The translations under genes and the position numbers were made by a program. From Lophium mytilinum (taxonomy: Eukaryota; Ascomycota; Dothideomycetes; Mytilinidiales; Mytilinidiaceae): DNA of 64,000 bases. The stretch lies in contig MU004187.1 of NCBI GenBank assembly GCA_010093605.1, forward strand, positions 749,383 to 813,382, read 5' to 3'. Positions 23,268-64,000 of this stretch are shown in pieces. Position 1 is the first letter of the stretch; each line of letters begins with the position of its first letter. Under the pieces are notes generated by a model. The model was not told the origin of the DNA. It made no database searches and worked only from the letters and a program-made list of their open reading frames with translations.

Positions 23268-25677
23268 ATGTCGAGCGACGATGACAGAAGACGACGAGAG
23301 AAAAGTGCAGAAGAGGAGTACGACTATTTGTACGAAACTCTAGAACAACAGGACTACGACGCCATAACGAGGTTTCATGAGTACCTCAAGCATTTTCTAA
23401 CGTACGGCGCTTACTGGAAAAGTAACTCTCAACGCTCCACCTCTGCGTTGTACTAGTTCTAACATGCACGTAGCGTGGCGAGGAAGACGGCGATTGATCA
23501 AAAGATGGAGCGAGATGAGCGAGGAAGAACAAATTGCGGCGATCGCTGAACCAGGTCCAAGGTCGCCCTCCCCCAGCAGCAGCGAAGATGGCCGGATCAC
23601 TAAGGACATCATCGCAAATGGGGAATGGGTGTACGTAAGCTCACGATGAAGATGAAAACTTTCCCAGCAATTCGTTTGTTTGAAAAACTACTTAGGGAGT
23701 ATTCCGAGACGACCATGCTGGTGTCTTGGAATCCCCCGAAGAAGTGTCTCACGCAACAATTGTTCCAAGATGTCGACATCATTTTCCATATTCTGGTTCT
23801 GAAAGATTTGCTAACTTTATTGCCACCTTAAGGTACGCTAAAGCTGTTTACCCCCGTTATGAGCATTACCGCAAGAGTTATTGGCCTCCTAGAAGACTTG
23901 TCTCCCTGTATGTCGATGTCGACGACCAATACAATGTCATCGATGTGGGTATATGCCGTTGTGTCTCACTCTATACATGCTTCAGCTAACGGCCTCACGT
24001 GACAGCGCATGATTGTTAAACGGCAAGATTATGCATACGATGATGATCTGGCAGAACTTCAGAATGAGATAAAGTTCCACAAAAAAGCGTCTCTTACGGG
24101 CTCCAATCAAATAGTACACCTACGAGATGCGACCCGCCGCGAAGAGTTAAGCATGGTGTACATATATATGGACTATTCCCCAGGCGGAGATTTGTACACA
24201 CTCGCGTGGAAAGCTGAGAACGAGAAGAAGTAAACCAATTCCAGCACCCACAAGAACCCCTTTACTGACGAGAATCACAGACAAATACCGGAGATATACC
24301 TCTGGATCATATTCGACGCCATTTCTGAAGCGCTCCACATTCTCAAAACCGGCCAGGCCGCCGTCTTCGATGACGTCGGGGAAGCCATAGAAGTAGAGAA
24401 CAGCAGTGGCTGGGGCCATCCACTCGTGCATCTAGATATCAAACCCGACAATATCTTCCTCGGCGCACCAACCGCGCCATACATGGGCTACCTCACCCCG
24501 CAGCTCGGCGACTTCGGCCAGGTGGCAGAATACTACGAAGGGGTCGATTACGACGATCTTAGGGGGGGTGGGACACCTGGATGGGGTCCACCTGTGAGAT
24601 CGCCTTTTCGTCATCTTCATTACTACATTGACGCTGACAGTGGCAAAGGAACAACGCGACCCACCCGAAGACATGTGGGAGGTGCCTTACACAGACTGGG
24701 CCGACGGTGCTCTCACAGAACCCCTTGACGACAAGTCTGACATCTGGACTCTCGGGCTCGTCATTTGGACTCTGATGCGCAGTAGCAGCTTTAACCACGA
24801 CGAGATGGAAGCAGCTCGCGACGAGCTTCGCTTCGACGACGAGGAGAGGGAGAGTGTCTTCGCAGCGGACATTGTGGCCAAACTACCTAGATACGACGGC
24901 ATGTACTCGACCAAACTGGAGGATCTGGTCAAGAAGTGTCTCGAGGTCAAGCGAGTTAGACGGCCAGATATTCTAGAACTGAGAGGGGAGACGTGTAAGG
25001 GGTTGCTCAAGGCACAGGAGGTCTTTGGGAACCCGGCTGTTGCGCGAAAAGAGGACTTGATGGAGCATTTGAGGTTGTCGTTCAGGGAGGAGATCTTCAA
25101 GATCGGAGGGCCGGGGCCAGAGAGGTGGAAGAATAGGAAGAAGAGGAAGGCGCCCGCTAGAGTCGATTCTCCAGTGACGGCTTATGGTGATTCTGATGGT
25201 GATGGCTCTGGGAGTAAGAGGAGGAAGACTCGTAGTGTTCATGGGGATGGAGAGCAGCGTGTCCAAGGCGATGACGATAACTCAGGCAACGTCATACGGC
25301 CATCGAACGATGAGGAGGATGATAATAACGTCCCTGAAGCCCAGGGCCCCCAAATTGAGGACCCCAATATAGACCGCCCAGCAGGTCTAGTCCAGGTTGC
25401 CGCACCGACGGATCCGATTCGATTAGGACTCCTCGACGCAGCTTTCAGCGGCGATCCAACAGGGAGATCCGGATTTCTGTGGTATAACGCTGTTTTGAGC
25501 GCTAGGGCTAAAGACGAATTGAAATGGTACCTCGGTAAGTTCTTCCTGAAAAGTGGTAGAAAACGAGCTGTACTGACTGAGTGACCCTTTGAAGGTAAGG
25601 GCCGTTACCCAAGCCTAATCAAGAAGTGGGACAAGTTGAACAATGACGATAAGGCGATGTACCGGCGCTGGACGTAG
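23268..25677 (+). CDS. protein-kinase-like protein with C-terminal HMG-like module
   Basis: Seven exons (23268-23421, 23474-23634, 23696-23944, 24006-24229, 24281-24593, 24649-25534, 25595-25677) give 689 residues. It is a paralogue of the two genes at 6.8-11.8 kb and shares matching intron positions, including those after YNVID, before QIPE, before the APE-equivalent PPE, and within the C-terminal module. Kinase motifs: MIVKR (Lys about 193), hinge YSPGGDL, HLDIKPDN (Asp about 315), GDFGQVAE, and GWGPPE in place of APE. No glycine-rich loop is seen. The C-lobe (SDIWTLGLVIWTLM) is followed by KNRKKRK and SKRRK basic patches, an acidic linker and the Trp-rich module (FLWY, WYLGKG, LIKKWDKL, MYRRW). 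Probably nuclear. Whether it is active is uncertain: Lys, catalytic Asp and DFG are present, but the phosphate-binding loop is not. Confidence 0.85.
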
Positions 25678-32455: not shown

Positions 32456-34368
32456 ATGGGCAGGCACGCCAATCCCGATATTCGTCGCGCCTTTGCCGAA
32501 TTCCAGGACGAGAGCACCCCCTCCAAGGTGAATACCAACCCCCCAAGAGCCAATGCTTCCACCCGGTGCGATCGCGTCAAGATGCCACTGCAAGGCTGCG
32601 ACGCGGTGCGCTTCCTATCCGAGCTCCTGACTGATGATCGCAGTGCAACAAAGTACGATGCCTCCATTGTGGCTTCGTTCGCGCGAAGAACACGACGCGC
32701 CAGATTGAGCACTTGCAGGAGTGCCAGGCCTACCTCAGCTCCGCCGAAGCGCAGGCTCACATGAGGGAGAACCCCGAAGGCACCACCCCCATCGACCCCA
32801 GCATGCCCGACCCCAATACGCGTGCTATTCTCAACGGCACCCATCCCAATCCAAACCTCCAAGTCCATCGTCGTGGCCCGAATTCGAAGCGCAACCGCGA
32901 AGGCCTCCCCATAATGCCGCATATGCCTCAGAACGTCGCGCCCTCGCCGCTTGTGCCGTCCTTGACAGCCCATCTCCTCACTGTCTGCGGCCCGTCCTTC
33001 CAGGCGGCGACACAGACGCCTTTCCTCTCGCACGCTGGCTGTGGCACGCTCGCTGCTGCTCCACTGTCGCAGTGGCTGGTCCAGGACGGACACTATGCGC
33101 GTGGATACATCCGCTTCATCGGGCAGCTGCTGGCCAAGATTCGTCTCCCCCAGACCACCAATTCGCAGTTCCACATCTCGTATCGGACCATGGACTTGCT
33201 GATATCGGCCCTGAACAACATTCGTCGCGAGATCACCTTCTTTGAGATCAATGTGACCAAGTACGGCCTGGCACTCAACAACGATCCACCGAGCCCCATC
33301 ACTCGTGCCTATCTTGATCTGTTCTTGAGCGCGAGCAGCTCCAGTGCATCTATGCTGGAGGGTATGGTGGTTCTGTGGGGCACTGAGCATGTAAGTATTC
33401 TATTCCTTCCAAAGGAATCTGTCCAGAGCGCCTCCAGCATGTTAAAAGTCACTTTAATATAATACGCATTCACTAATACCTCTGCAGTGCTACCGTTCCG
33501 CGTGGACCTATGCTGCCACTTTCAGCGGTACCCTTTCCACCCCTTCCACTGATGCCCACATCGTTGCCCTCCACCAATCTCTCATCCCCAACTGGACCTC
33601 TCCAGCTTTCTCCAAGTTCGTCGACGCCACGCGTGCCCTTGTGGACGAGCTCGCCAACACAACCACCTCTCCTAATGGAAAAGAGGAGATGCTGCGTTGC
33701 GAGGAGGTCTTCCGCCAGATCTGTTGGCTCGAGGAGCGCTTCTGGCCCGATGTCGACGGTATGGGTCAAGAGGACGAGAGTGCTCGCTTGGCCTCAGGTG
33801 GAGGCCTGGGCAGCTTGAGTGGAAACGGCCTGAGCGGTAGTGTTGGACCCCTTGGTGCCGGGATTGGCGGCCAGAGTGACACTGAGACTCCTGGCGCCAA
33901 TGGCCAGGTCGCATTCAGTGGCCTGAATGGCATCGAGAACCAGGAGGCATAGTAAGTTTCGTATCGACGGTTGTACGCAAAATCATTATTCTGGGTCACA
34001 AATACTAATCTCGTTTCCTTTTTCGAAGTCCAGAAGTCGTGGAACATTGGTTGGAGAAGTTTCTTCCGTCTATGTTAGAGCTCCTTAAGCCAAAGAAGGC
34101 TCCAGTAATCATCACCACAACTGAAGCAGTCTTTGTTGGTAAAGGACAAGCTTCTTCTGTTTTTGGAAAAGGACAAGCTTCTTCTGCTTTTGGAAAAGAA
34201 CAAGCTTCTCTTGGTTTTGGCAAAGGACATCCTTCTCCTGGTCTTGGTAACGGACATGCTTCTCTTGGTCTCAGTCCAGGAGAAGCTTCTCTTGCTCTTG
34301 CTGAACGACATGATTCCCTTGATCTTGGTCTAGGACAAGCTTCTGTTGTTAAAGGACAAGAGGTTTAG
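32456..34368 (+). CDS. BED zinc finger + TENA/THI-4-like protein with 9-residue tail repeats
   Basis: Four exons (32456-32527, 32644-33390, 33488-33951, 34029-34368) give 540 residues. Exon 1 plus exon 2 start form a BED-type zinc finger: FAEFQD, CLHC and HLQEC supply the Cys2-His-Cys ligands. A linker with RRGPNSKRNR follows, then an all-helical domain resembling TENA/THI-4 (haem-oxygenase-like fold) with FFEINVTKYGLAL, LWGTEH, CYRSAWTYA and CWLEERFW. The last intron is inferred from a GTAAGT donor that overlaps a TAG (ATAG/TAAGT at 33950-33956), a CTAAT branch point, a T-rich tract and a CGAAG acceptor. Without it the protein ends at 33952 with 427 residues. With it, a Leu-rich segment and eight GQASSVFGK-type repeats are added. 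Possibly a DNA-binding regulator; enzymatic activity is unproven. Confidence 0.78.
34144..34359 (+). repeat. 27-bp tandem repeat, eight units (coding)
   Basis: Units begin GGACAAGCTTCT and code for nine residues, based on G-Q-A-S-S-x-F-G-K. Identity is highest in units 1-2 and decays to the right, while the 27-base register is kept in all eight, as expected if the frame is translated. Confidence 0.85.
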
Positions 34369-43496: not shown

Positions 43497-44613
43497 GGAC
43501 CGAAGCAAGTTTGGCGGAAACGGGGTTTCATTCAAAGCAGGTTGTGGGAATGAAACTTTCCTAATAGATCAGTTCCCTAAATACTTCCATATGCAATCAC
43601 AAGTCCAAACCCTTCAACGTGATCATAAAGATATCTTGACACGTCGTGGCACTGATGGATTATAAAAGTCCAGTCCTTATGGCGTTTAGGTAGTATGGTC
43701 TCACCGGGGTGGGGTTGTGCCACTGAGCACCATCCTCTTACTGCCAACATTTAGAAGGATCAGGTTCTACTTGTTCTCTCCCATTACTGCGTTGTACACT
43801 GTGAGAGACTTGCGTGGATATAGTAGTACAAGACAGTAGTTCTCCTCTCCGTGCATGTTAGATTCAGATTAAGACGATGCAGTAGTAGGTATCTACCGTG
43901 CGTGTACTGCTCGCCTGTTTAAGAACCAAATTGTAGAGAATGAGGCCTTTTGCTATGCCCGTGAAACATGAGTAACGTATTTACTGGAACATGCTTCATT
44001 CGTCCTGCCACAAACAGAGTTTCCTGGAACTAGATCCGTTTGCCTGCCGATTCTTCTCAAGATACCAAAGATCACAAGGACAGGCTATAAGTCTTGCACA
44101 TCCGTTCACCGCCGTTTGGGGTGGCCCCAGGTGTTCCGACAGTCTAGGCGCGACGTCAAGTCTCAAGCATTGCAAATTAGAGTGCTTCTTGACTCCTTGG
44201 CTGCTGATTAGCCGGGCTACTCCTGTCATTGGTGTCCAGTGAGCAATATTGGAGCCAAGCAGAGACAGATCCGAGTGCCCAGACTTATGGCCCAATATTG
44301 TAAGGATATTGCCTTTTAACACATCGTAACTAAATGCCTGCATGAGAAACTAAATGCCTCGGAACTTCAAGGTAGTGAATCATTGGGGACCACACAAAGG
44401 TGAAGTTTGCCCCGACGTCATTAGCGAATGAGTTGTTTCTATTCACTCACGTCTCGTAAAGCGAAGCCGATGACTAAGAGGCGTCACAGACGTAGAAATA
44501 TAAGGAAAGCTTCCACACCTCCATTTCTCGAACACCAGCGCGCCCACCCGACCTTTCTCCTCCCCGCCTGTTGTTAGTACACTTACCAACGCGATCCCAA
44601 CACATCCGTACCA
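43497..44613. other. intergenic
   Basis: 1.1 kb between the two related small genes. The words GTGCCCAGACTTATGGCCCA (44274-44293) and GTTCAGACTTATGGCCCA (near 45792) recur after both genes, so part of this spacer may have been duplicated along with the gene. No gene supported. Confidence 0.5.
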
Positions 44614-45402
44614 ATGGCGCACCACACGACACCCTTCCAAGATATCAACGACCGTCTGGCGCACAATCCTACCGGTGCCGAAGCCTCTCCTGAAATGGCC
44701 TATCCACAGCTGTACAGCGCCCCGAACGACGATGATGCGACGCGATACGGAGATCCTGCGGTTGGTGGAGAGGACGACTGGGAGGCTAGAACTCTTGCGG
44801 GATGGTCAGACCCCTATCGTCGAAGCTTTGCAAGCTCGCCAGGAACTCATTCGGTGATGACGGGGGAGAACTTTGGTACCCTGGGCCCGGCATTCCAGGA
44901 GACCCAGCACCGCGGCGGTCCGCCAACTACCTCACCACATGGAAACGCGTACCAACAGACCCATATGAGAGGCTCCCATGAGGCGCAAGGATCTGGCGGA
45001 GCATGGTCTTCGGGACCAACCTACTTCGGGGTGGCTGGACTAGTCGCTGGTCAGCAGATGGTAGCTCCCGAACCACACCTAGCTCAACAAGCGGCGAACT
45101 ATGCCGCGCAGGGAGAAGACCCTTTCCAAGAGGCCGACTTGGAGCTGGTGCTAGGATCGAGGGAATATTGGGTCTATTGGCCTGCCGCTTACTACGTCCC
45201 GATGCCTCACATCAACCTATTCGCAGCCGGTACACTTCGCTTCTATCTTCCCGCAAGCTCCACCGAGCAGCAAGCGCGCTTTCGGCCGAGCCAGCCAACG
45301 ATCTTGAACCCGCCGGCCGTGCCCCAGTACCAGCCACTGCCGCAACCTCCCATCTCTCCCTCCGCGCACGATTCCGTCATCGATCCACAGCTGCTCGAGT
45401 AA
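44614..45402 (+). CDS. hypothetical protein, small tandem family member 2
   Basis: Single exon, 262 residues, polar and Gly/Pro/Gln-rich. Residues about 165-225 match the gene at 42649: EDPF, EYWVYWP, MPHINLFAAGTL and ASSTE. The frame ends at LLE-TAA. Directly behind that stop the same frame reads EFWNRLDSV for 14 codons before a TAG at 45445, and this aligns with the C-terminal EFFQGLRDAV of the sister gene. So the TAA may be a recent nonsense change (from CAA) that removes the last helix. No known domain. Confidence 0.6.
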   Translation: MAHHTTPFQDINDRLAHNPTGAEASPEMAYPQLYSAPNDDDATRYGDPAVGGEDDWEARTLAGWSDPYRRSFASSPGTHSVMTGENFGTLGPAFQETQHRGGPPTTSPHGNAYQQTHMRGSHEAQGSGGAWSSGPTYFGVAGLVAGQQMVAPEPHLAQQAANYAAQGEDPFQEADLELVLGSREYWVYWPAAYYVPMPHINLFAAGTLRFYLPASSTEQQARFRPSQPTILNPPAVPQYQPLPQPPISPSAHDSVIDPQLLE

Positions 45403-47796: not shown

Positions 47797-49436
47797 ATGT
47801 CCGAACCTTCAACTGGCTTTGGCGGGCGTTTTCGCGATGCTTTGGCTTCTGGTGGAGATTACGAGACGGCTGATCTCTTCGACCGCAATCATATCCTACG
47901 AACGTTCTTAGCACTGAAAGGCTACACTCAAGGCTCCCAGACAACCCACTATCCTTCTCGTGCTTATGATGATCAGTTGTCTGATTCATTCAAAGTACGT
48001 CCTTACTTCAATACGTAATCAAGTACTCTTGAATCGCACGCTTACTGACATCACAACCCTGTAGCTCGGCCGTCGTTCTGAGTACGTCTCAGGCGTCGCA
48101 GATGGCCAGAATCCGGGCGAGGAACAGGGCGACCTGCTTACCAACGACGAACGTGACGATTCCCAACATATAGAGAACATGGACATCAATCGCAAAGCAG
48201 CGGAAGGCCTTGACGGCAAGGGGGACGACGACCTAGACGCTGATCAAGCGCAGCCCACCTGTCAGTGCGGGCACAACATTCGTCGCCGGCACAGGCAGCC
48301 TGAGTCGACTGGCCCTCGAGACGGAAATAATCCATTGTTTGAAGGCACGTCAGTCAACGAGGAGACTGGTCTTTTCTTCCGATCAGCAGAACAAGGACTG
48401 GCCTTATTCAAGAACCAACCACTTTGGCGACCTGCAGAGGAACCATTGCCAGAGGAACATTTCGAGCTCGAGCCATATGTTGTTCTAATTCGAGACGCCG
48501 TCATGTCGGTATCCGCTTCCTCCAATCGTTGCGGTGATAGTACTACGTCCCCAGACCAGCCCGACAGCGACGTCGCGTCTCTCGGTCGAGGCGATGATGG
48601 TATCCTTAGTCAGGAAGTCAAAACTGCTGTTGCCGAATTTGATACCACTGAAGTCAATGAAAGGAGCAGTAGTGAGGTACCTAAGACAACATCTACGAAA
48701 AGCCAAGGGCCTGGTGGAGGGTCGGACCGTTGGGGTCCTACTGCTTCATATTATGAGGATCAAGCGATAGAAATTGCAGCTCGGCTTCTGTTGGTATGTT
48801 CCACTACATCTTTGTCCTACAAATCAACAAGTAACAAGGTCATAGGAAAGGGTGTTAAGCCTACACAAGGAGGGATGGGTGCGTCCAAATTTAGACAAAA
48901 GCCAGCTCAACGTCAGGAAGCTTTACGAGCCAGCACTCTGCTTTGAGGACCGTATTGATGCGATCCTTGACGTTTTGAAGGTAAAGTTGCCTGGCCTTAG
49001 TCACGTAGTCTTGCAGAGTACTGACACAGATTGTAGACACATAAAGCAGCGTGTAAGGCGCTTCTTGACCAGGACGACCTGTATATCGATCAGCTGGTGG
49101 CGGGCCCCAACAAGTACCTAGCGGTGAGTATTGAGGTCCTACAAGTCATACTGAAACCGAGCTGACTCAAACCAGCGCGCAGGGGGTAATAAAACCAACA
49201 ACAAAAAACGGCGAGGGTATTACGCCACTGGACGAGAGGAAGCAAAGCGATCAAATCCCAAGGTGCAGGTCACGTCTCAGGTGCACGATACGAATGGGAG
49301 CAAAAGCCAAGCGACAAGTTTCAAGAAGCGGAATGCGGAATCATCCGCCCGCACAGACGAGGGCGTCGAGACCGGCGGTACCTTAGGTCAAGCCACTCAG
49401 TCGCGCTCCGTAAAGAAGCCACGTTTGGCTCGTTAG
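47797..49436 (+). CDS. array protein 1 (unrecognised family)
   Basis: Exons 47797-47994, 48065-48793, 48846-48980, 49037-49123 and 49176-49436 give 469 residues. Core order: module A (TGLFFRSAEQG, QPLWRPAEEPLP, PYVVLIRDAVM), a variable Ser/Glu-rich linker, then module B (DRWGP, SYYEDQAIEIAA), continued by a 45-codon exon (LHKEGWVRPNLD, LYEPALCFEDRIDAI) and a 29-codon exon (HKAACKALLDQDDL, VAGPNKYL). The C-terminal exon is variable and basic, ending SVKKPRLAR, a likely nuclear signal. All introns are phase 0. A CQCGH motif before module A is unique to this copy. Function unknown. Splice sites agree with those of the five sister genes, which is the main evidence for the model. Confidence 0.85.
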
Positions 49437-50245
49437 AGCGGGAAAAGTAAGCAGTATGGGGAAGTTAGCCTGCGAGGTTTCGGGGCGTTGAGACAAAAAA
49501 CCAGCAATGAAGCATAAAAAATGCAATTATAAATTATCAGGCCAGACTCACTGCATAATACCCGGTTTTCTCCTCCTAGCTTAGAATAAAGATGCTAGAA
49601 GAAGATTCTGATTGAGTGAACCGTGATGTCTTTACTGTGGCGTTCAATGAACGCAAAGCTACTTTTTGTGCGAACTATAGTAAAATGAATTCAAAAGCGC
49701 CATGGCCATTTGAGTGCGTACTCGCTATGTGTTATCTTTGGTATTCTGCGACCCGGTCAGTATTGCTGCGTTAATGGTGTAACTGTGTAGAGTCCCAATT
49801 TTAGTATTACCTATGCGAGCAGAACTTCAGACGGGGACATTAGTAACACGTGACTTGAGCTTATTGCCTGTCGGTAAACAAACGGCCTCCATTTTAGCGG
49901 CTACGGCCACGGACGCTCGGTCCCCAGCTTAATTTGGACACAAATTAGTGTGTTTTTGATCGGATACTGCAAAACAGACCTCGCTCTTTCCCGCCGCAGA
50001 CCAACCTCATGCACCACAAAATCACTTCTGCGCACTGCAATCGCAATATACAGCAGTTTGATCCAACCTTTTCCCAGGCTCGAGTGTCTCAGGAGGTACG
50101 TCGAACCTACTTTGGCCTACGCAATTGCTTGAATTTGCTGGGTTCGGCCAATCTTACTGTCCTAGCGTCTTTTAGCAAGAGCTAGACAGACCTCATACTA
50201 GTCACAAATCTGACGCGCTTAGTGCTATCTAGGCATTGGGATACA
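49437..50245. other. array spacer 1-2
   Basis: About 0.8 kb. T/C-rich leader toward the next gene; no other gene seen. Spacers in the array run about 0.6-1.3 kb. Confidence 0.5.
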
Positions 50246-52052
50246 ATGGCATACGAATGGAACACTAAGCACGACTTGCCCCCGACCCGAGAGTACCTAG
50301 AAGGGCTTCTCTTCAACGACGACGACCGACCATTCTCCGGTCACGATGAGGAGTCATTCCAATTTCACGACGGACTCGGTGCACCAAACCTGGAAGATTC
50401 CTACGGAGCTTTACCGATTGCATCTGGAACTGGGGGCGTCGCTTACACAACAACCTTTCCGACCTACAACATCTTTGATAACAGTGCGTTTCGTGGGCAT
50501 ACCGAGCGGGACCTCCAGCACTCTACAAATGAGGACACGACTTTCGCCTCATATAGCGACGACAATGAGGAGTTCGACTGGAGTCTCGCCAGTGGAGACG
50601 ACGTAGTTGCGAGGCCCACCCTACCGGCACAAGGGGCGAATGCCCATGGAAAGAACGATCTTTATAGAAACATTTCCATCAATCATCATGGCTTGTACTT
50701 CACGTCGGCGAAAGAGAGCTGCGATATCTTTCGGAGGCAACCTCTTTGGAGGCCCGCCAAAGAAGACCTTCCGAACGGGAACGACGCGCGCGTACCCTAC
50801 GTAGTTCGCATTCGAGATGCGATGATGCGTCTCCCCACGCCCAAGAAGATTGGCGGAACGGGAGATCAGATGAATTCTCAAACTACGGTACAGTTTGGTG
50901 ATATCGTCCAGACAGGCAAGAAAGCGGTGGGTCAGACCAACAACAACGCGCACTCAGAGGCCAAAGATGGCGGTGCCGGCCAGCCAGGGACCACCTCCAC
51001 GCAGCGTCAAGCCAACATTGTTCCAAAGAGGGCGAGTCAGAGTACGAAAAACCAGTCTGGCAAGGAAAGCCTTAAGTTACCTACACGAGGACCTACTGGT
51101 GGCATGGCTCGTTGGGGACCGAACAATAGATACTACGAGCCCCAAGCCATCGAGATCGCCGCTCACATATTGGTGGTAAGTGACATCAAACGGTTGGAGT
51201 AAGCAAGCAGGTTGAACAGTAATTTCTAGGGCAAAGTGATCGAGTTGCACACGAACGGCTGGACTCGGCCAAACCTGGACCCGAAGCAGCTGGAGATGGA
51301 GAAGATTTACGAGCCGGAACTCAGCTTCGAGACTCGTATCGTGGCTCTTGAAGAGATCTTCCAGGTAACAAAGGTACTTCCTGGTCATGTTAGTGCAAGA
51401 TACTGACGAAGACTTAGAATCACAAGGCTGCATGCAAGGCTCTGTTAGACATGGACGATTTGTACATCGATCAGGTGGTTGCTGGCCCGAGCAAGTTTCT
51501 GGAGGTTTGTGTTCTTTCCTAAGATTAGCTATATATATCAACTGACACCACCAGCGAACTTTGGGCTACAGAAAGAACAACGAAAAGAGAAAGGAGACCT
51601 ATGCGAAAGGACGGGAGAAGAACACCGAGGGTGCACAGTCAGCATCGCAGCAGCAGGTTGGCACGAAATTGCCAACGCGAGTCAAACGCGAGGCAGACAC
51701 GATGTTTGAAGGGGATGAGGGGGCGAGCAAAGATAACACTTCAGGAGAGGTTGTCCATCCGCGGAAGCCTAAGAAGCCCCGCTCTTCCGGGGGCGAGGTG
51801 GCAAAACTCGCAAAAGCAGAGGGCGACCTTCAGTCTCAAGGAAACACTGGATCGCGTTCGAGCTCCAACGCGGTGGCGGCATCGCCCACGGGTGGTATGA
51901 AAATACGACCGTCTCGCCTTACGGCTCCAGGCACTCCGGCGTCCTATGCAACTACTCCTGGAGACAAGCCGGCTGGCGTACCAGGCGCTTCAACCTCAAA
52001 CCGACGATCAGGCCGCAAGCCCAAGCCGAGGATCAGCAGTTCGACGAAGTAG
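50246..52052 (+). CDS. array protein 2 (unrecognised family)
   Basis: Exons 50246-51175, 51230-51364, 51418-51504 and 51555-52052 give 549 residues. The N-terminal 150 residues are acidic and variable. Module A reads HGLYFTSAKES, QPLWRPAKEDLP, PYVVRIRDAMM. Module B reads ARWGP, RYYEPQAIEIAAHILV. The 45-codon exon has LHTNGWTRPNLDPKQL and YEPELSF; the 29-codon exon has HKAACKALLDMDDL and VAGPSKFLE. The last exon begins R-T and is Lys/Ser/Gly-rich, ending in a basic RRSGRKPKPR tail. Unlike copy 1 the region before module B is one exon. No enzyme motif, signal peptide or membrane segment is visible; a nuclear protein is likely. Confidence 0.87.
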
Positions 52053-53163
52053 GGTTGTGGATCATGACGATGGGTGGCTAGCTGTACGCTCATGACCTAC
52101 CGTAGTCTATGTTCGCAGACAGATCGAGCAAGCTGGGTCTCGGTGTTATGTTCTCTAACTTGCTAAGGGGAAAAAGAGCATGAAGATAGGGAATGAATGT
52201 ACGCAGTAGGCGTGCTTGTCATGATGTAGCTTACTTTCACTACGAAAAGAACATGGAACAGGGTCTTGGTCACTGAGATTTCCCTTTTTAGGTAAAGGCA
52301 AGCGCGACATCGTGTAGATGCTCGTCTAGACGAGTGGTGTCTACTAGATTGCGGTGGGTTCTCAAAGGCTACATAGGCAAAAGTCAATAAAGGACATCTC
52401 GTCCATAAAACTAGAACTTCTGCGTCCCTTGTGAACACGAATGACATGAACATAAACGCTGGCATTGTTTCCTATAAGGCAGGAGCATTTTGCAAGCTGA
52501 CGACACAGTGTAATAAGAGCAGTTCTGGGGACAAGAGCATGTTCCAGTGTCAGAGAGACTCAGGCAATGGGGGCGAGTAACAAGAATGTGAGAGCCAAGA
52601 AGCAAGCAGCATAGAAACGAGATATAGTGGGAGAAAGGAACCACTTGAAATGGAAGGTTGCCTCGATGTCTGAAGCTGATGACACGACAAGTTCGCGACC
52701 AGCAGTATTGGTGGGGTTTAGAGGATATTAGTCATTACAACGAACTCTACAACTTTTTACTGTATGCCTCTCCGGGCACGTGAGAAAGTCTTTAGTCTAG
52801 CCACGCTCCAGCCAATCCCGCATAACCTGTGGCCCGACATAAGCCCCAAGGCCCGACTTAAGCATACGCTAAGCTGCGTCCCGACCAACTGCCACAACGC
52901 AGGTCCGTCTATCCACTGATTGCTCACCGTCAGCGCCACTTCTGTACTCTGCGAACCACAATAGCCCTTGGTAAAGTTCTCTGCTTTTGTTCTTCCCTGA
53001 AAAGTGAGTCTTCTTACACCCTCATTGGACAGCTTTAACTCTGCTTTTGCTCGGCGACGCTGCATTTACCAAGCACACCAGCAAGCTGTTCAGCCCCCTC
53101 CCTCCTATCTGCTCAGTGTCACCCCACTAACCTACTTTCGTACGCTAGAGATACCAGTACGCA
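52053..53163. other. array spacer 2-3
   Basis: 1.1 kb with no supported gene. It starts with the 3' end of array gene 2; a C/T-rich stretch precedes array gene 3. Confidence 0.5.
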
Positions 53164-55189
53164 ATGCCCGACACATGGGGCTCATCCCCTCCATGGGGCG
53201 TACCGCGACAACCAACCGGCGACTTCTGGCCTTCTGATCGGCTGCAAGGGGTGCTGAACGATGTCTTCGGCGCGAGTCACGATTACCTCCAAACCGTGGA
53301 GGGTAGAAACATCGTTGCACCAATGACAAGTGGTCAAGAGGTATTCGGCGATATACTCTCGGATTTCCAGTTCGAGGGTGCGAACAACGTCGACACATTG
53401 GGCGCGTTTCGCACATATCGCTGTGGCGCATCCCCCGCACAAGAGACTCCGAACAGCGATGCTTTCTCGAGTGTATCTGGCCTGGCGAGTAGCAACGAAC
53501 AATTCTTCACTGTGAGTGACTATCTCTAACTGCGCGTTTTTCCTTCTGCATAGAGTAATTATATTAACATCGTGGCTGTTCAGCAGATTCAGTACCCCCA
53601 GAGTTACGAGTGGCCAATTGGACAACGTCAGTCGACCTCTATATACGACCCGAGCCCTTTGCCCATCAAAGCTACCCACCCCCTAATGCCTAGGCAGAGA
53701 TTCAACAAGGGCGGGGAAATCGACCTGTACAAGGACCTGGCTTTGAATGAACATGGGCTCCATTTCAAAACGGGGAAAGAATGTTACGATATCTTCGAGA
53801 ACAACCCGGTGTGGAAGCCAGCGCCAGAATACCTGCCGACCGACGACGAGCGTGCGCCCTACGTAGTGCTTCTCCGTGACGCGATTATCAGCTTGCCAAG
53901 TGCGAGCACAAAGGGCACAGACGAGGCACAAGAGGCTGGTGATACCAGTGAACAAGCTGAGCATGAGCGCTTACTCACTCAAGCGGGCGATGGCAGTGAG
54001 GGTGCGCTCCAGATGCGATCGGAGGATGCCACTCAGACAGGAAACAGTCCTGCGAACAACAAGGCGTGCGAAGCTACTCTCCAACAGGCACACAAGAGTA
54101 CTACGAAGCAGGGGGCTAGGAAACAAGCAAAGTCGGCTAATGCTGCAGGGCCTGCAGGTGGTCTAGGTCGATGGGGACCAGAGGCCACCTACTATGAGCC
54201 TTTGGCTATTGAGATTGCTGCTCAAGTCATGATGGTCAGTAAGAGCACATCTATAACCAACGAAGAGTCTGCTGATCAGTATAGGACAAACTACTGCGTC
54301 TCCATACAATTGGCTGGACTCGTCCTCCTCTCGATCCTAAGCAGCGTGACATTGACAACCTGTACGAGCCAGAGCTCAATTTCCATGACCGGCTCACAGC
54401 TGTAGAAAATGTCCTCAAGGTAATAAGGCAGACACGAACATCGTATTTTGCAAGAAGGCTAACAACATCTTCAGAGTAATAAAAATATGTGCAAGTTCTT
54501 GCTCGACCTGGACGATCTGAAGATGGACAAGCTAGTGGCAGGGCCAAACAAATACTTGAAGGTAGAAGCTACATCCCCAGACATATTCAACTGGCTGACT
54601 CCCCTAGCGCTCGGCGGTCAACAAGAAGATCAATGTCGATAGGCAGACATGCCTTGTGAAGGGACGCGAGGTTGTAGCCGAAGAGGATGAGTCCCAGCAC
54701 AGGGATAACAAGAAGGCCAAAAAAACTAAACGCAAGGCTGTTTCGATCTCTGGAGGCGATGAGACTCAGACCGCTGGGAGTGAGCTAGGATTAGGGCCTA
54801 CTCGCAAGGTAAAGAAGCCACGACCCACCAAAGAGAAAGCACAAGAGTCCTCTAGGGCTGAAGCCAATTCTACTCTCGACGACGATACGCACTTCGCCCA
54901 AGACAACACGGCGCTAGCGGCAGGCTTTCCCACAGCTAGCTCTGGATCTCACATGGCCTTTGCTACAGCCCCGCAAGGTCCTCATGAGGATGTCTTGTCC
55001 CATCCTTACGGAGACAGTCTCATCACATCAACAGCTACGGGATCGGGAATGCCAATCACCACCTCTATGACCGGGGCAAAGGAATGGGACTATCAAGGAG
55101 GAGAGTTAGACACGACTGGTGATGACCATACCCTGGGAGATTTAGGACAGTTTCTTCCAAACACCTGGTCCGACTTCTCGTTCCTATGA
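53164..55189 (+). CDS. array protein 3 (unrecognised family)
   Basis: Exons 53164-53511, 53584-54234, 54285-54419, 54475-54561 and 54608-55189 give 600 residues. The first acceptor could instead be at 53553, which would leave a 42-base intron; 53583 was preferred for length and its TTAAC branch point. Module A reads HGLHFKTGKEC, NPVWKPAPEYLP, PYVVLLRDAII. Module B reads GRWGP, TYYEPLAIEIAA. The 45-codon exon has GWTRPPLDPKQ and YEPELNF, and the 29-codon exon has MCKFLLDLDDL and VAGPNKYLK. The tail is long: a Lys-rich stretch (KKAKKTKRK, RKVKKPRPTK) followed by an acidic/Gly-Ser C terminus ending WSDFSFL. Donor of intron 2 is the less common GTCAGT. Confidence 0.85.
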
Positions 55190-55823
55190 GTCTAGGGAGC
55201 CGTGGAGGAAGGGGGGGAAGGCGGACTACAGGAAATGCAGAGGATGAGATTGTTTCTCCCATGCTTCTTGATACTTCCTTCAACGTAGCTGTCCTTGATA
55301 CAACTTTCAATTTGCATTGTAACTGCTGAGTCTCAAATTGACTGCCAGCTGGTATGACGCATTGGCACGTTAGAGTATCGAAGTGGCGTTGATGTAGCAG
55401 TGTAGATACTAGAAATACTCTCAATAGACGTTTCTAATCAAAATTCTCCTATTCTCGCGTCCCATGAGGATGTGGACATGCATGTAGCAAGCCTGTGCTT
55501 GCTCTAGTGCTCAACTATCAAAGGTGGACATTTCGTGTCGATTTAAGGTTGCATGGCGGGCGGCTAGTCGGGCACCGGCCCTCGGTTAATCTGAAGCCCG
55601 GGCCCGCGCTAACACCGTTCGGGACCATCTATCTACCAAATTTGGGGCTTACCAAATATTGACCACGACAGGCGGAAAAACTCGCAGCTAGCGTGCTCCG
55701 CAGCTGATACCCAACGTTCGCTCGTCTTGAACTCTGTCGGTGCTGCTTAGCGATACTATCTCCTGGTCAGTCGACTCTCTCTCTTCCGCGATACTCCCCG
55801 CCGCCAAGTCCTGGAGGACTTCA
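55190..55823. other. array spacer 3-4
   Basis: 0.63 kb, the shortest spacer of the array. GC-rich around 55560-55620. No other feature seen. Confidence 0.5.
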
Positions 55824-57509
55824 ATGCCGCAAGGGCACACTCAAAACATGAGTGAGAAGGACCCAATCTATACTGTGTGGTTCGGCTACTAACAGAATAC
55901 CCTGTATACAGACAGCGGAAGGATGTCTCGCCTCTTCCATCTTCAGCTCGACGAAGAGGCTACCCATCAACCCGGGGTCAGCAGCGACACTCACGAAGTC
56001 TTCTCCCCCTCTATCAGACAGCTCCGTTCGACGAGACAAGAATCCACACAATCGATGTTTGACGACCCCGAGTTCCACTCCTCGCAGATAGCCGGTCAGC
56101 TTAGTCTTCCTCGCTTAGTCGGACATCAGTACGAACAGCAGGTAAGAATTGCCTTGTGTCTATTGATATTTGAATGTCTCTAACATGAATATAGAGCCTT
56201 GAAGACTCTGACTCAGACGGCGAATATGAATCCGGCCCCAATTCCGAAACTAGTTCTCCCAAGAAACCAAAGCACGCGAAGGCCCAAGGACCGCCCCCAA
56301 AGACGAACGAGCTCTTCAAAAACTTGGTCAAAGATGAAGAAGGCCTATACTTTGGCTCAGCAGAGGACGTGTTCAATGCCTTCGCGGACGATCCCTTGTG
56401 GAAGCCCGCTAAGGAAGAACTGCCATATGGAGAAGAACGACTTCCCTATGTGATGCGGATCAAGGACGCACTTCTACATTTGCCAGCCGCTGAGAGCATG
56501 ACGGCAGTTGCTCTTGACGGCACTACTGGTGATACAGCCGCTGGTTCTCTAGGTACTGCCGTGGGCAGAGGAATGACTACACCGAAGGACGCGAAAAATA
56601 AGTGTGGGCGTGGCGGAGGACTAGCACGCTGGACGGGTGGCTATTATCAGTTACAGGCGATCGAAGCTGCTGCACATCTCCTCGTCGTGAGTAGCAATGC
56701 TGTCCGAGTCTCGATCTATCGACTGATAAATATGTAGGACCGAGTCGTCGCCCTTCACGAGCTTGGGTGGTCTAGGCCAAACTTGGACCCCAAACAGCTG
56801 GATGTAAAGAGACTCTATCAGCCAGAACTCAGTTTCGATGAGCGTATCAACAGTATCGAGAGGGTACTTAAGGTTTGTTACTTGTTGGGTACAGCACAGA
56901 ACATTGCTGACATAGATCATAGTCAAAGAAACACACTTGCAAATGGGTCCTCGATAACGACGACCTCGTGTTGGACAAGCTGGTAGGAGGCCCAGAGAAA
57001 TACGAAGAGGTGCGTCTTGTTCGGTGTTCATTGATCCCAACGCGGAGGTAACTAACACATATCAGCGCTCGAATACCAACAAAGTCCTCAACGACTCGAG
57101 ACAGATCGTCCTGAAATTCGGGCGCAAAGAGGTCAGCAAGTCTGAGGATAGGAGCAAAACACAGCCCACCGCCAAGCCCAAGCGCAAGGCGAGCCAGATC
57201 GCTATTGTGGATAGCTATCAGATTAATGCGGGATCAGGCCCGTCTACACCCAAGCGGCGTCAGATCAGCGCGCTCCCATCTCGTAACGGCGCTATTCACG
57301 GTTATGCCCAAGAAAAGGCGGGCTTTGTTCAGAACGCTTCAGTCACTCGAGCTTACCGAAGCATTGTCAATGGCGTAACAGGTGGCAGTTTACTACACCA
57401 GGACTTGCCGCCGACTAACAACAACAACCGCTTCACTCCAGCGATCGGCTCAAGCAATCTTCGCCGTTCGGAGCGCGTTAGCCGCATGGCGACTAACTTC
57501 GGGAAGTAG
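55824..57509 (+). CDS. array protein 4 (unrecognised family)
   Basis: Exons 55824-55851, 55912-56141, 56195-56686, 56738-56872, 56923-57009 and 57066-57509 give 471 residues. The tiny first exon (nine codons plus one base) is supported by a GTGAGA donor, a TACTAAC branch point and TACAG; without it a start at 55923 is possible. Module A reads EEGLYFGSAEDV, DPLWKPAKEELP, PYVMRIKDALL. Module B is shortened (ARW, GGYYQLQAIEAAAHLLV). The 45-codon exon has GWSRPNLDPKQL and YQPELSFDERI, and the 29-codon exon has HTCKWVLDNDDL and VGGPEKY. The basic tail (KPKRK, TPKRRQ) ends with RRSERVSRMATNFGK. Confidence 0.85.
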
Positions 57510-58498
57510 ATGTGGAGCACAGTTGTTACGAAGGCGGCAAACTGCATCAATGGTGGATCGAGTTTCTAGATGAGGGTGACAGCAAGTGGTCCAGTGGGTA
57601 GAGCTTGAGGAGTGGTGTTTCTCAATTACTCTGACGTTTGTGATGCCAATTGACAAAATGTATTGCAGTTTGATAGTCTATAGATAGATAAATAAGCATG
57701 GGAAGCCGTGCATTTTGGAGACAGCCCAGAATACATCCACGCGATCGATCAAATATCTAGCTCTTATGAAACACACAGTCATCTCGTACCATACTTCATT
57801 GCTTTTGTCTAATCATAAGGAACAGAGACACATCAAATACCATCAAACTCATTCACAGACGAGATGCCCACTGTGGTCGAGGCCATCGTACAGATTGCGA
57901 GGTTATACATGAGTTCGTTCCAGATCGATTCTCGTTCTTCAGCTTTTCGTGGACAATCAAAAACTACGCCCATATCTATATAAACGCCAAATCGGCAGAA
58001 AAAACCTTTCTCCTAAAGCTTCAGGAGAAGAAACTAGACAAACGCCAGAAGATCAGAAACTAGTCAGCGTATCTTGAAACTCTAATTATTTGGGGCTGCG
58101 ATCTGGGTGACGTCAGCAAAGTTGTTAGCTGGTATGGCATAGAAAAAGCATCAGCCGGGTGGGTGCACGGTGCACCGACTGGCCAGTCCCAGCCCGAGGC
58201 TAAAGCTTTCCAAAGGTATTTATTGCTCAACTCGATACAAGCCGCGCACAAGGTAGACATCAAAGCTGTTGTCGTAGTTCTTCTAGACCACACACACAAG
58301 ATCAATACGCATCTTCACCTATTCTGTAAGTGTTTCTCGTCCTAATGCTTGGTGTGAGCCGCGTTTCTCCCCCGCACACCACAGGCGCGAGGGCAGCTTT
58401 TGTCCATCAAGCCAGGTCTTTCGCTCCAGCAGCACTGAATGGCTTCTCGCCTGATCCTTGGCTAACGCTGATGCTCAGCTTGTAGGCACGACGTGGCA
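57510..58498. other. array spacer 4-5
   Basis: About 1 kb, no gene supported. AT-rich near 57650-57850. Confidence 0.5.
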
Positions 58499-59929
58499 AT
58501 GGCGAGACGTCAGCGCAAACAGTCACGTACCGGAGGAAGCGCTGGTGGCGTTCCGCACCCTCAATCATCCAACTCCCATCTTCGTCAACAGCCCGGGTTT
58601 CTCTCAGATGCTAGCACCGGCAACTTCTTCAGCCACGGAGACGTGACTTACCATCATGAAGACTATGAGAATGACCTAGAGGAGACTCATAGCATGCTCA
58701 GTCGCCTCCTCCCTTATAGTCAGAATGAGTCGGTAAGTCATCTTTAACGCCCGACTAACGCTGCTTCTTCATGAATCTATCGCTGACGCGAAGCTATATA
58801 GGATGTCGACCAACCTACAGAAACCAAGAGCCATCGTTCGGGCTGCAATCCTAAGAATAGTCATGTGCTAGCTTCGGGTAGAGCGAATGTCGCCCACAAT
58901 ACCTCGAACATTACAGCAAAGAACCCATTGTTCAACGACATGGAACTGGACGAGGACAACCTCTACTTTTCAGCGATCGAAGATATCCACGACCTATTCC
59001 ACGACGCCCCCCTCTGGAAGCCGAAGGAAGAGGCACTACCCTACGGGCGGGAACGTCATCCATACGTTGTCCGCATCAGAGACGCTGTTATGGATGTACC
59101 GAGCGCGGTCAATAGCTTGAGCCCAGAAACCGCCACTTCCGTCGGTCAGGATTCTCACCGCGCTGATGACCCGTCTGTGGAAGGTCGCGCGGCAAAGACA
59201 AAGAAAGCGAAAAAATCTACCGGCTTTGGGGCGAGGTTCAAACCAGGTGCCGTATACTACCATGCAGCAGCGATTGAAGCTGCCGCTCATATACTGGTCG
59301 TAAGTAGCAGATTATACTCCAGACTAATATCCAAGTAACATTAGTATAGGACAAAGTGGTCGCGTTGCACGAATGTGGTTGGTCTCGTCCGAGTCTGGAC
59401 CCGAAGCAGCTGAATAACACTGCACTGTACCAGCCAGAGCTATCGTTTGACGGGCGGATGGATGCCATTGAGAAGGTTCTCAAGGTAGAAACTGTGACTA
59501 AAATCATAGAAACAATCAGTACTGACCGCTCGTGTAGGAGAACAAGGGAGCGTGCAAATGGGTGCTAGACTGCGACGACCTCAGAGTGGACATGCTTGTC
59601 GCTGGCCCATCGAAATACAATCAGGTGAGTACTATGATGCGCTATGTATAACTTGGATACTAATCAAGCCCCATCAGAGATCCAAAGCGAATTCCAAACT
59701 CAATGGGTACAGACAGCTCTATCTCACCACGGGCCGTAAAAAGGTCAAGAAGAGTCTCCCAGATAGAGACTTCACGGAAGAAGTTGTGGAGAGGATGAGT
59801 CAAGAATCAGCAAATGGCCAGACCCAGAGCGTAAGCACAGGCAAGAAGCGTAAGGTCGACAATGCAGGCACGCCGGACGAGGATGTCACTCATGGCAACT
59901 CGAGACCCAAGAGGTCGAAGAAGCTCTAA
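58499..59929 (+). CDS. array protein 5 (unrecognised family)
   Basis: Exons 58499-58732, 58802-59299, 59350-59484, 59538-59624 and 59678-59929 give 401 residues, the shortest copy. Module A reads EDNLYFSAIEDI, APLWKPKEEALP, PYVVRIRDAVM. The linker is short and ends KTKKAKK. Module B reads ARFKP, VYYHAAAIEAAAHILV. The 45-codon exon has GWSRPSLDPKQL and YQPELSFDGRM, and the 29-codon exon has GACKWVLDCDDL and VAGPSKY. The tail is a compact nuclear-type signal: GKKRK and PKRSKKL at the very end. The start is the first ATG in frame; an upstream exon cannot be excluded. Confidence 0.85.
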
Positions 59930-60011
59930 GCCTCTAGTCTTTGCTCTCTAGAAGGAGGGTACGATGTTACTACTAAGGAAGGCGCTCCGGAAAAAGCAGC
60001 CAGAGTCACTG

Positions 60012-60083
60012 TGTTGGATGAAAAAGCACGCCCCGCCTAAGATTAGGGGGACCGGAAAATAAGCGATATTATATACTCCAACA
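60012..60083 (-). repeat. 72-bp LTR (3' LTR of the TRIM)
   Basis: On the minus strand it begins TGTTGGAGTATATAATATCG and ends TTTTTCATCCAACA. It matches the copy at 60481-60552 at 71 of 72 bases. Confidence 0.92.
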
Positions 60084-60389
60084 CGCCCCGTAATAGAGCT
60101 GTGTGAAGGTAATTAGGATGTAGAAAATAAGAGAATAAAATAGATGTTTTAAGTGGCAAAAACCATTGTGGCTTAATAATTGGGGTGGTTGATTGGTGGA
60201 AAGATGCGAAAGCGCACCGAGAGATGTATAATATTTATGCATAGAGTTATGCTTCCTCCTAGGAGGGTAGGGGGTAGTCCCCTTAGTATTATGTATTTTT
60301 ATATAGGCGGGACGAGTTTCCATGCAGTTGCGGAAAATTGGAAATTAGTCCTGGTAAAAGACTCCCAAGCTGCCTTGTGTGCGTGTCGA

Positions 60390-60463
60390 ACCCGTAAGTT
60401 GGTGTTCGCGCTGGCTAGTCATGGGCGTAGTCTGGTGTGCTAACCAAGTGGACCATCCGGGGG
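60390..60463 (-). other. tRNA-like sequence inside the TRIM
   Basis: On the minus strand GCCCCCGGATGGTCCACTTG resembles a tRNA acceptor/D-arm start with a TGGT/ACCA stem, and GGTTCGACACG farther on resembles a pol III B box. Acceptor and T stems do not pair properly, so this is not a functional tRNA gene; it may be a captured or decayed tRNA fragment. Confidence 0.35.
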
Positions 60464-60480
60464 CAACCGGGCTCATAACC

Positions 60481-60552
60481 TGTTGGATGAAAAAGCACGC
60501 CCCGCCTAAGATTAGGGGGACCGGAAAATAAGCGATATTATATACTCTAACA
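60481..60552 (-). repeat. 72-bp LTR (5' LTR of the TRIM)
   Basis: Differs from the other copy by one base near its minus-strand start (TGTTAGAG against TGTTGGAG). The primer-binding site touches its inner end. Confidence 0.92.
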
Positions 60553-61215
60553 CACTGGCATTAGATTTCTAAAGAAGCATACTTCTAGCTACAAATCATG
60601 GTAGAATAAGTCCAATTAGTTGCTCTAGATAAGTGACAGTCCGTAGACTGGCGTGTACCGGCGGACGAGATCTCGGAAGCTTTGTGTAGCGTAGTGCCCA
60701 AAAATGTTGATCCGTATCTTCAAGAATTTATGCGGTTACAAATGAAGCTAAACGGATGTCACTAGATTGCGAAGAGTATACTTATGGTGCCTGGTTCTTT
60801 TTGTGGGAGAACGCTTAATATAACGATACAACGGCCTTCTTTTGCCCCCATCACGTGGCGTCACGTGGGAGTTGACTCGGGTTGATTAGCTTGGCGACAA
60901 TCGATAAGATCGACCTAGAAATAGCTACTTCAAGCGCGACGCAGTCCCGCACCGTCAACACCAGCACACCACCCGCCTGCTTTGCACAGCACCTTTTGCT
61001 GCTCTTTGACTCAGACAATTTGACTTGTATGCACTCTAAATCCACGTAAGTGCTTCTCGTATTGGTCTTCGTTAGAAGTTGGACCTCTTGTAGCTGGTAG
61101 CTCGCCAGCCCTAGTTCAGCAAGACGGCACCCACCATTTTGCTCTATTCAGACAACACTAGAATGCCCTCCGCTTTTACTGTATGCTGACAGTTACACTA
61201 TAAGACACCGCCAAT
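60553..61215. other. array spacer 5-6 (right of the TRIM)
   Basis: Promoter side of array gene 6; a CACGTGGCGTCACGTGG palindromic pair lies near 60853-60869. No gene seen. Confidence 0.5.
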
Positions 61216-64000
61216 ATGAACGCCGGTGGCAGTGGACATCCAGATGAGAAGTCATCTGATGGCACTCCGCCGCCTGCTAGCTTGTATCCACTTGCCGGAT
61301 TGGAAGAAGGTCCAGGCGATTTCGACGAGGCTCGTATGCCGTACTTCACCAATACTCGTGGCTTAGAGATGAATGTAAGTCTGCACAATGTGTTGTACGA
61401 ACTGTTCTAACATAGTGTGAAGTCTTCCACACAAACCAATCCTCAGATACCTCAACAAGCCGCACCACGGTCTGGTCAAGACATGTTCAATGACGACTAC
61501 CAGTCATACGCACAGATGGACGGGGTGCGACAACGTCACGACTTCGCCGGCTACACGGCCCAAGGCACGCCTAGTGGACACTATTACGATGGGACCTCTA
61601 CAGAGGCGTTTACCCGCGTCCAACACGGTTCTACGCTTGTGACGGTAAGTGCCGTGATCACAGTTTCTTTATTATTCATCATAAGAGTATTCTTTTGACA
61701 TTTTCACGTATAGAACGCCGATCCATTCACTGGTGGAGTGGAACATGGACACGGATCCGGCCAACAAGGTCGGACCCCATTGGGTCAAGTACAGACGCCT
61801 ACTAACGAGCCCGTGGGTTCCACGCTGGAAGAATCGGTATGTCTCTTCATTTTCATCGCCGCTGAGTGGCTTTTTTCTTATGAAGCTGCGCTAACTGTCA
61901 ACCCGCAGGTGGAACCGTCCCGGAAGGTCCCCGAAGAGCCCTACAGCCCTCTCTATCCAATACCTCCCGCGTATGTTATCGCCAGGACCAACTTCGAGGC
62001 TATTAAGCCACAAGAACCCCGAAAGAAGAGAAACACAGGCGCCACATCTGTTGCTCTTACACGCTCTGACCAAGAACGCAACACTGTTCCCTTTCGAGGA
62101 GCTGGCCTTGGTCAAGCTGGCAGGCCGGTGCGTACTAGCGGAAATACAACACGCTCAGTTCGCCTCGATCAACCGTTAGAATCTGGATACGCCGACACAA
62201 TGGGAGGCCCGTACGCACAGGCACGCGATGAACACGCCAACCAGCAGCAGAACCCGTTCTCGATGGCTTTTCCAGGCTACACTCCTGCTGCCGTCCCGAC
62301 ATCGTCGTTGTTTGCCCCAACGTCATCGCCATTTGTTCTGACACAACCCGGCGCTGCCCAACCGGGCAGATCAGGTATGGCTGGCGCGCGCAATGAGTTG
62401 CCCTCTGTGGTAGATGTAGTCGCCGGAGAGCGCTTTGACCCCGATCGTGAAGGTCGAATTCAGGCCACCCAGAACAGATATCGGATGCTTCTGCAGTTAG
62501 ACGACAACGCCGCGCCACAGTTCCTGAGCTGGGGTCACGACGTTCGGGACGCATTTCTGAGTGATTTCCCAGCGTTCCTAGATAGGCATAGGAACGCTCG
62601 GGTATTGCAGGACGCGGGGCGATTGGCAATGTACGAGGACTTTGCCCGATATAGTGCTTGGGCTGGACGTCCGATTGATGAAGAGCAGGTATGGGCTGAC
62701 ATGGAACGCTATAACCTCGTCAACATCCATGTAGAAACACACGGTCCCGTTGAACCTGAGCTAGCTGCTCACCCTGACCCTACGCCTGACCTTGAACAGA
62801 GGCGGAGGAGAGATTACGGTGCACCCGTCCACCCAACATCACCAGACATTGGTGGAATTGAGGGTACAGAGAGCTTCCTTACCCCAATCCCGGGCCCATT
62901 CGAACCCTCGAGCGCTTCGCGCCTTGTTCAAGGCCAGGAACCAACTGAGACCACGCAACAGGCGCCTCAAAAGTCGAAAAAAGACCGTATGGTTATCAGA
63001 AATGATGTTCTCAAAGGGCGTGCTCTCAACGAAGAAGGGATGTATTTCAATTCCGCGGAGGAGGGCAACGCGTTGTTCCGCGAGCGCCCGCTTTGGAGGC
63101 CGAAGGAGGAGACGCTGCCTTCCGGTACGGACAGATTGCGTCTCGTCAGGGCGTTAGAAGACGCCATGTACAATCTTGAGGACATACATGACCGTCCTAC
63201 AAATCGACTTGCGCGTTGGAGGCCCGACAACGCTTATTACGACCCCGCCGCGGTCGAGCTCGCTGCACATAGGCTTCTGGTGAGACCAGTCCCGTGTTTA
63301 GAAAAGGAGCGTACTAACTATAGATCAGGAACGGATCATCAAGTTACACATGGAGGGATGGACTAGGCCCGTGCTTGACCCGACCCAAGAGAATCTCTTC
63401 GAGCCAGAACCATACTTGTCCTTCAAGGAGCGTTTCGAGGCAATTCGACAAAACCTTCAAGTAAGTCATTCTTGTCACCAACATCTCACTCTCTGCTAAT
63501 TGAATGTTTTCAGCATTGGAAAGCCACTGCCAAGATGGTTCTCCAAGGCGACGATTTGAAGATGGACCAGTTCATTGCCGGTCCTAACGAGCGGGCAGAG
63601 GTATGTAATACAAGTCCCCAAGCACAACACGTCTAATTATTTCATCAGAGGAGCGAACGATATAGCCAGGCCAACCTGGCTAAGCAAATTTTCATCAAAG
63701 AAGGCAGACAGGCTGCGAAGGGCAGAAAACGTACTGCGGAAGAAGCATTTTCTTCGGAGGGCCGCGAGCTCAACGAAAGCTCAGCAACTCAGCCACGGAG
63801 AACCCCCCGAGCCAGAGGACGGAGCGTGCCGACCCCGCGCCGTACATCATCCAATACTGTTCAAGGTGGCGATGGTTCCGATCTCAGCGAGGTCGACGAG
63901 GACGCAGCCCCACCTGAGGAAGTGAGGGATCCAAGATCCACTAGAGAATACTTGCCTCGGGAGACTAAGAAAAAGGGAGGGCGAGGAGGGCGAAGCCATT
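61216..64000 (+). CDS. array protein 6 (unrecognised family), 3' partial
   Basis: Exons 61216-61374, 61423-61644, 61714-61836, 61909-63279, 63329-63460, 63514-63600 and 63649 to beyond the window; at least 850 residues, the largest copy. The first acceptor is uncertain (61422 chosen). The N-terminal half is unique: a long polar region, then about 110 residues with helical character (VVDVVAGERFD, FLSWGHDVRDAFLSDFPAF, EEQVWADMERYNLV). Module A reads EEGMYFNSAEEG, RPLWRPKEETLP but loses the PYVV.IRDA end (LVRALEDAMY). Module B reads ARWRP, AYYDPAAVELAAHRLL. The next exon is 44 codons (GWTRPVLDPTQ) rather than 45, and the 29-codon exon has WKATAKMVLQGDDL and IAGPNE. The basic tail (KGRKRTAEE) runs off the window. 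It is the most diverged copy and lies on the far side of the TRIM. Confidence 0.82.

Follow-up and report, generated by a model that had tools for sequence, protein, structure and literature searches.

Local duplication in a Mytilinidiaceae gene family with a candidate TFIIS domain II/Bye1-type core

What kind of protein is encoded by six similar genes that follow one another at the end of a 64,000-nt stretch of the Lophium mytilinum genome? This stretch, hereafter the window, spans C7:749383-813382, C7 being a 2.24-Mb contig of a genome of 43.2 Mb in 24 contigs. From position 47,797 to the window end we modelled six spliced plus-strand genes (g1 to g6), all of which contain a common core, as the first-pass annotation had proposed:

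47797..49436, plus strand: g1, five exons, 469 aa, core at 48326-49253; matches P0001 over its whole length
50246..52052, plus strand: g2, four exons, 549 aa, core at 50651-51632; P0004 has 3 further residues at one splice boundary
53164..55189, plus strand: g3, five exons, 600 aa, core at 53716-54685
55923..57509, plus strand: g4, five exons, 458 aa, core at 56303-57143; matches P0005 over its whole length; the member whose structure was predicted
58499..59929, plus strand: g5, five exons, 401 aa, core at 58919-59755; P0009 has 3 further residues at one boundary
61216..63999, plus strand: g6, seven exons, 807 aa, reaching the window edge, core at 62998-63726; P0006 has 8 further residues at one boundary

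Five of the six models agree with database proteins, g1 and g4 exactly, and g2, g5 and g6 with differences by insertions only. To judge from the sequences, these insertions of 3, 3 and 8 residues represent alternative choices of splice boundary. The counterpart of g1, P0001, is annotated as a hypothetical protein of L. mytilinum, and protein database searches returned no matching protein for g3.

All six genes are laid out alike: module A and module B are separated by a linker of variable length (very short in g6), and after them come the 45-codon and 29-codon exons and the beginning of the final exon. Linker included, the core measures 193-275 residues and is interrupted in each gene by three introns, and the introns of these models are all in phase 0, since every exon length is divisible by three. 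The 29-codon exon is constant (87 bp in all six), while the 45-codon exon described at first keeps its length in g1 to g5 (135 bp) but has 44 codons (132 bp) in g6. The cores of g2 to g6 are 40-46% identical to that of g1, and the columns invariant among the six include the P, W and P of PLWRP, the YY pair, the GW, RP and LD of GWTRPNLD, DDL, and GR.

A second conserved region of ~115 residues lies in the N-terminal arm of g6 (approximately 62390-62745); it is 50% identical to P0008 and has no Pfam match and no PDB sequence match (PDB profile search, E<=1). Upstream of g1, an open frame at 44578-45399 has a composition resembling that of the disordered N-terminal arms, without a core or Pfam match. 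The window also holds an open frame with a TENA/THI-4 match (32638-33459; PF03070, 28.3 bits, over the cut-off), as well as three open frames with long tails that look kinase-like by eye (6817-7521, 9751-11013 and 24598-25581).

The array of six genes that was first reported is cut by the window edge and runs on beyond it, with g7, g8 and g9 extending up to about C7:823.5 kb and bringing the array to nine genes. Downstream of g9, six divergent relatives occupy C7:832-861 kb, making 15 family genes in 64 kb. Seven more loci are found elsewhere on C7 (at 204k, 225k, 230k, 437k, 448k, 1690k and 1699k) and one on C20. The genome thus contains at least 23 family loci, 22 of them on C7, which represents 5% of the genome; these counts come from nine single-protein genome searches and from profile HMMs run on the fetched loci, and should be read as minima.

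Since a profile will match its own input sequences, we judged profile evidence on held-out matches. An HMM of the six cores recovered g7 and g8, along with seven dispersed loci, with no E-value above 2e-4; one built from nine genes matched the 852k gene, and one built from 18 members matched the 437k, 448k, 230k and 1699k loci. The 204k locus is supported by a single-protein genome search (E 1.4e-9). The weakest member is g9, which matches the profile of dispersed members at E 0.013 and is also supported by its intron positions. Array and dispersed profiles align to each other with an hhalign probability of 99.5%. The core match is not due to chance, because none of 2,165 reversed decoys was matched by the six-core HMM at E<=1; no reversed decoy was matched in the searches with the larger profiles either.

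The three core introns are at matching places in 13 loci (the six window genes by script, five by eye, and g7 and g8 from frame changes). The fixed phase-0 introns noted in the array are not, however, a property of the whole family, as the core frame is uninterrupted in 10 of the 23 loci. Among these, the 225k member (L030:3446-5593) has an in-frame TAA inside the core stretch, which may reflect gene decay, an error in the sequence, or an unrecognised intron. The many copies and the uninterrupted frames, one of them with a stop, might be taken to indicate genes derived from a mobile element. We consider this the least probable of the explanations weighed here, given that 22 of the 23 loci are gathered on a single contig instead of being scattered, and that no transposase, reverse transcriptase or gag domain was found in the members scanned. 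A terminal-repeat element does lie between g5 and g6, but it is a separate, genome-wide repeat: a 73-nt direct repeat at 60012-60084 and 60481-60553 (99% identical, 469 nt from start to start), with at least 32 matches in the genome, several of them paired ~450 nt apart, which we take to be a short terminal-repeat, TRIM-like element.

How old is the family? Three members have orthologues in Mytilinidion resinicola, namely g4 (P0007), g6 (P0008) and the dispersed gene at C7:1690k (P0003), and in a tree of 22 cores these pairs are recovered with supports of 100/99, 98/97 and 97/98, respectively. In the same tree, g1 to g8 group with two M. resinicola proteins at 93/100, just under the mark set by the tool, g9 falls outside this group, and several dispersed members are long-branched and of unsure position. 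P0007 and P0008 are probably encoded by linked genes in M. resinicola, because both are reported on a 3,067,355-nt contig. These pairings indicate that g4, g5, g6 and the dispersed gene had already been set apart by duplication when Lophium and Mytilinidion split.

Of the 15 array paralogue pairs, 14 show saturation at synonymous sites (dS 2.98 in the remaining one), with pN at 0.29-0.44. Between orthologues, identity is 72-85% in the core and 35-53% in the arms and linker (gap columns left out), which extends to the sister genus the contrast between fixed core and variable shell first seen in the array. Conserved orthologue cores and saturated synonymous sites at such pN values indicate purifying selection on the core. 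We rejected a recent expansion on account of the saturation and of the retention of orthologues in the sister genus, and the best explanation of the sequence data appears to be an old, locally duplicated family of the Mytilinidiaceae (Lophium, Mytilinidion).

These results do not support the role originally suggested, that of a fast-evolving family for recognition or for control of self and non-self. Such a role would account for the variable arms, and a HET-domain gene (C7:864471-865730, L029:2472-3731; PF06985, E 1.6e-33) is located ~3 kb past the end of the cluster. However, this is a separate gene, the nine full-length family members have no Pfam domain at E<=1, HET included, and the constrained core, the saturated synonymous sites and the orthologues of g4 and g6 all speak against this account, which we regard as very improbable. 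Moreover, a hydropathy scan detected neither signal peptide nor membrane span in any of 10 proteins (the 8-residue mean peaks at 1.14 within the first 32 residues), and by the same scan we rejected secreted effectors.

Concerning the identity of the core, Pfam, NCBIfam and PDB sequence searches gave no family name. Pfam, searched with E limits of 1 or 5, produced only two sub-threshold matches, both in dispersed relatives, to MSP1a (E 1.2) and to a phage tail family (E 0.1), NCBIfam gave no match for the two cores searched, and the six cores had no match among PDB sequence profiles at E<=1. With 14 family rows, five PDB matches appeared at E<=10, the best being a copper regulator (E 0.059); we took this one and the two Pfam matches as chance. 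A sequence pattern picked out 29 stretches in contigs of IMG/VR and 45 in those of GTDB, and by tblastn none of them is a relative. Protein database searches yielded matches for 1 of 8,000, 2 of 1,483 and 7 of 8,000 scored candidates, and all those named are from Lophium or Mytilinidion, although the method needs shared five-letter words and could miss relatives in other fungi. Literature searches listed no paper on this family or on an expansion of TFIIS domains in these fungi. The Pfam, NCBIfam and PDB sequence searches thus leave the core without a family name, in line with the first-pass annotation; its statement that no known domain is visible must nonetheless be qualified in the light of fold comparison, which places the core near TFIIS domain II.

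The predicted structure of g4 consists of a compact all-helical core between long arms of low predicted confidence, with the following correspondence to the gene:

56447..56494, plus strand: helix 1 region of the putative TFIIS-like core (model helix 152-167; approximate place in the window)
56738..56872, plus strand: 45-codon exon, predicted to hold the end of the helix 2 region, a loop, and helix 3, which carries the invariant R and K
56923..57009, plus strand: 29-codon exon, predicted to form two short helices preceding the last long helix

In this predicted helix order, the variable linker is placed after the first core helix and before the second, and its variation would not call for fast evolution. 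When two models were compared with known folds, TFIIS or Bye1 occupied every top row: the Bye1 TFIIS-like domain ranks first and second in Foldseek, run with one model, and both VIA-align lists have it in their top rows. The best profile windows between the core and TFIIS_M are colinear over helices 1-3 (a possible match to the fourth helix appears at window length 30 only and was left out of the count), and the core shares with TFIIS domain II a basic residue at position 0 of helix 3 and a leucine at +8. The predicted sequence of helices also resembles that of TFIIS domain II. That the core has the fold of TFIIS domain II is thus supported, but not proven, by the predicted structures.

The sequences, by contrast, give no significant match between the core and TFIIS domain II by hhalign, HMMER or gapped alignment, and the TFIIS_M family model (PF07500) matches no member in Pfam searches. 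The two also differ at position +2 of helix 3, occupied by an arginine in 7 of 7 TFIIS_M rows which, we assume, contacts Pol II; the family has mostly lost it (R in 1 of 22 members, K in 2, a gap in 1). Both observations would be expected of an unrelated all-helical domain that came to resemble TFIIS domain II by convergence and makes no contact with the polymerase, for example a nucleic-acid-binding module acting via the conserved R...N...N..R/K segment that follows the third core intron, the N...N spacing of which is found again in most members, both in the array and dispersed. Convergence does not readily explain why TFIIS and Bye1 fill every top row for two models, or why the best profile windows are colinear with TFIIS_M, and we find it doubtful, while still a serious alternative.

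If the core is of TFIIS domain II type, its setting is closer to that in Bye1 and the related PHF3 and DIDO, where the domain is likewise embedded in a long protein and not placed ahead of a zinc ribbon. The C4 pattern of the TFIIS zinc ribbon is absent from all 10 family proteins, and the nine full-length members lack any Pfam domain, including the PHD and SPOC domains of Bye1/PHF3/DIDO (E<=1). An ordinary TFIIS gene (TCEA1/Dst1 type) and a Bye1-like gene with a PHD-like stretch (judged by eye) exist separately on C5 and C10, the only contigs with loci matched by PF07500 in the genome. Without the zinc ribbon, PHD and SPOC, stimulation of transcript cleavage or histone reading in the manner of these proteins is therefore not expected, and the polymerase contact surface may be altered or gone, as the usual arginine is missing.

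The reading that we put forward, as one with about even prospects, is that of a Mytilinidiaceae family of nuclear, transcription-associated docking proteins with a TFIIS domain II/Bye1-type core. The TFIIS-like fold would be held between long arms, disordered by prediction, and the proteins would act in the nucleus, where they would dock either to RNA polymerase II or to a different partner in transcription or chromatin, and each paralogue would have partners of its own through its divergent arms. The model for such docking is the Bye1 TFIIS-like domain, which, according to PMC4100922, binds the Rpb1 jaw of Pol II, while the Bye1 PHD reads H3K4me3. The nuclear location and the docking partner are both inferred. 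Basic clusters in the tails, which exceed those of shuffled sequences in two of 10 proteins (g3 and g5), give a weak hint of nuclear location; the tails, initially described as Lys/Arg-rich, contain 10-21% K+R across the six genes, but their net charge varies from +13 to -7. A chromatin or nuclear role would fit the TFIIS-like reading.

More tentatively, a TFIIS/Bye1-type domain may have left its conserved role and may now form the core in a family restricted to this lineage, whose genes, at least 23 in number, would code for docking proteins with their own disordered arms. To our knowledge, TFIIS domain II is otherwise present in a few proteins per genome. If the fold is right, at least 23 loci invisible to Pfam would mean that a core-transcription module has expanded to an unusual degree, and would show that domains of this kind can go unnoticed in 'hypothetical' proteins of fungi. 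This reading makes a clear prediction, that of binding to the Rpb1 jaw or none. If it is true, this conifer-dwelling fungus would possess, mostly on one chromosome-sized contig, a toolkit for polymerase or chromatin docking made of elongation regulators, or of competitors of TFIIS and Bye1.
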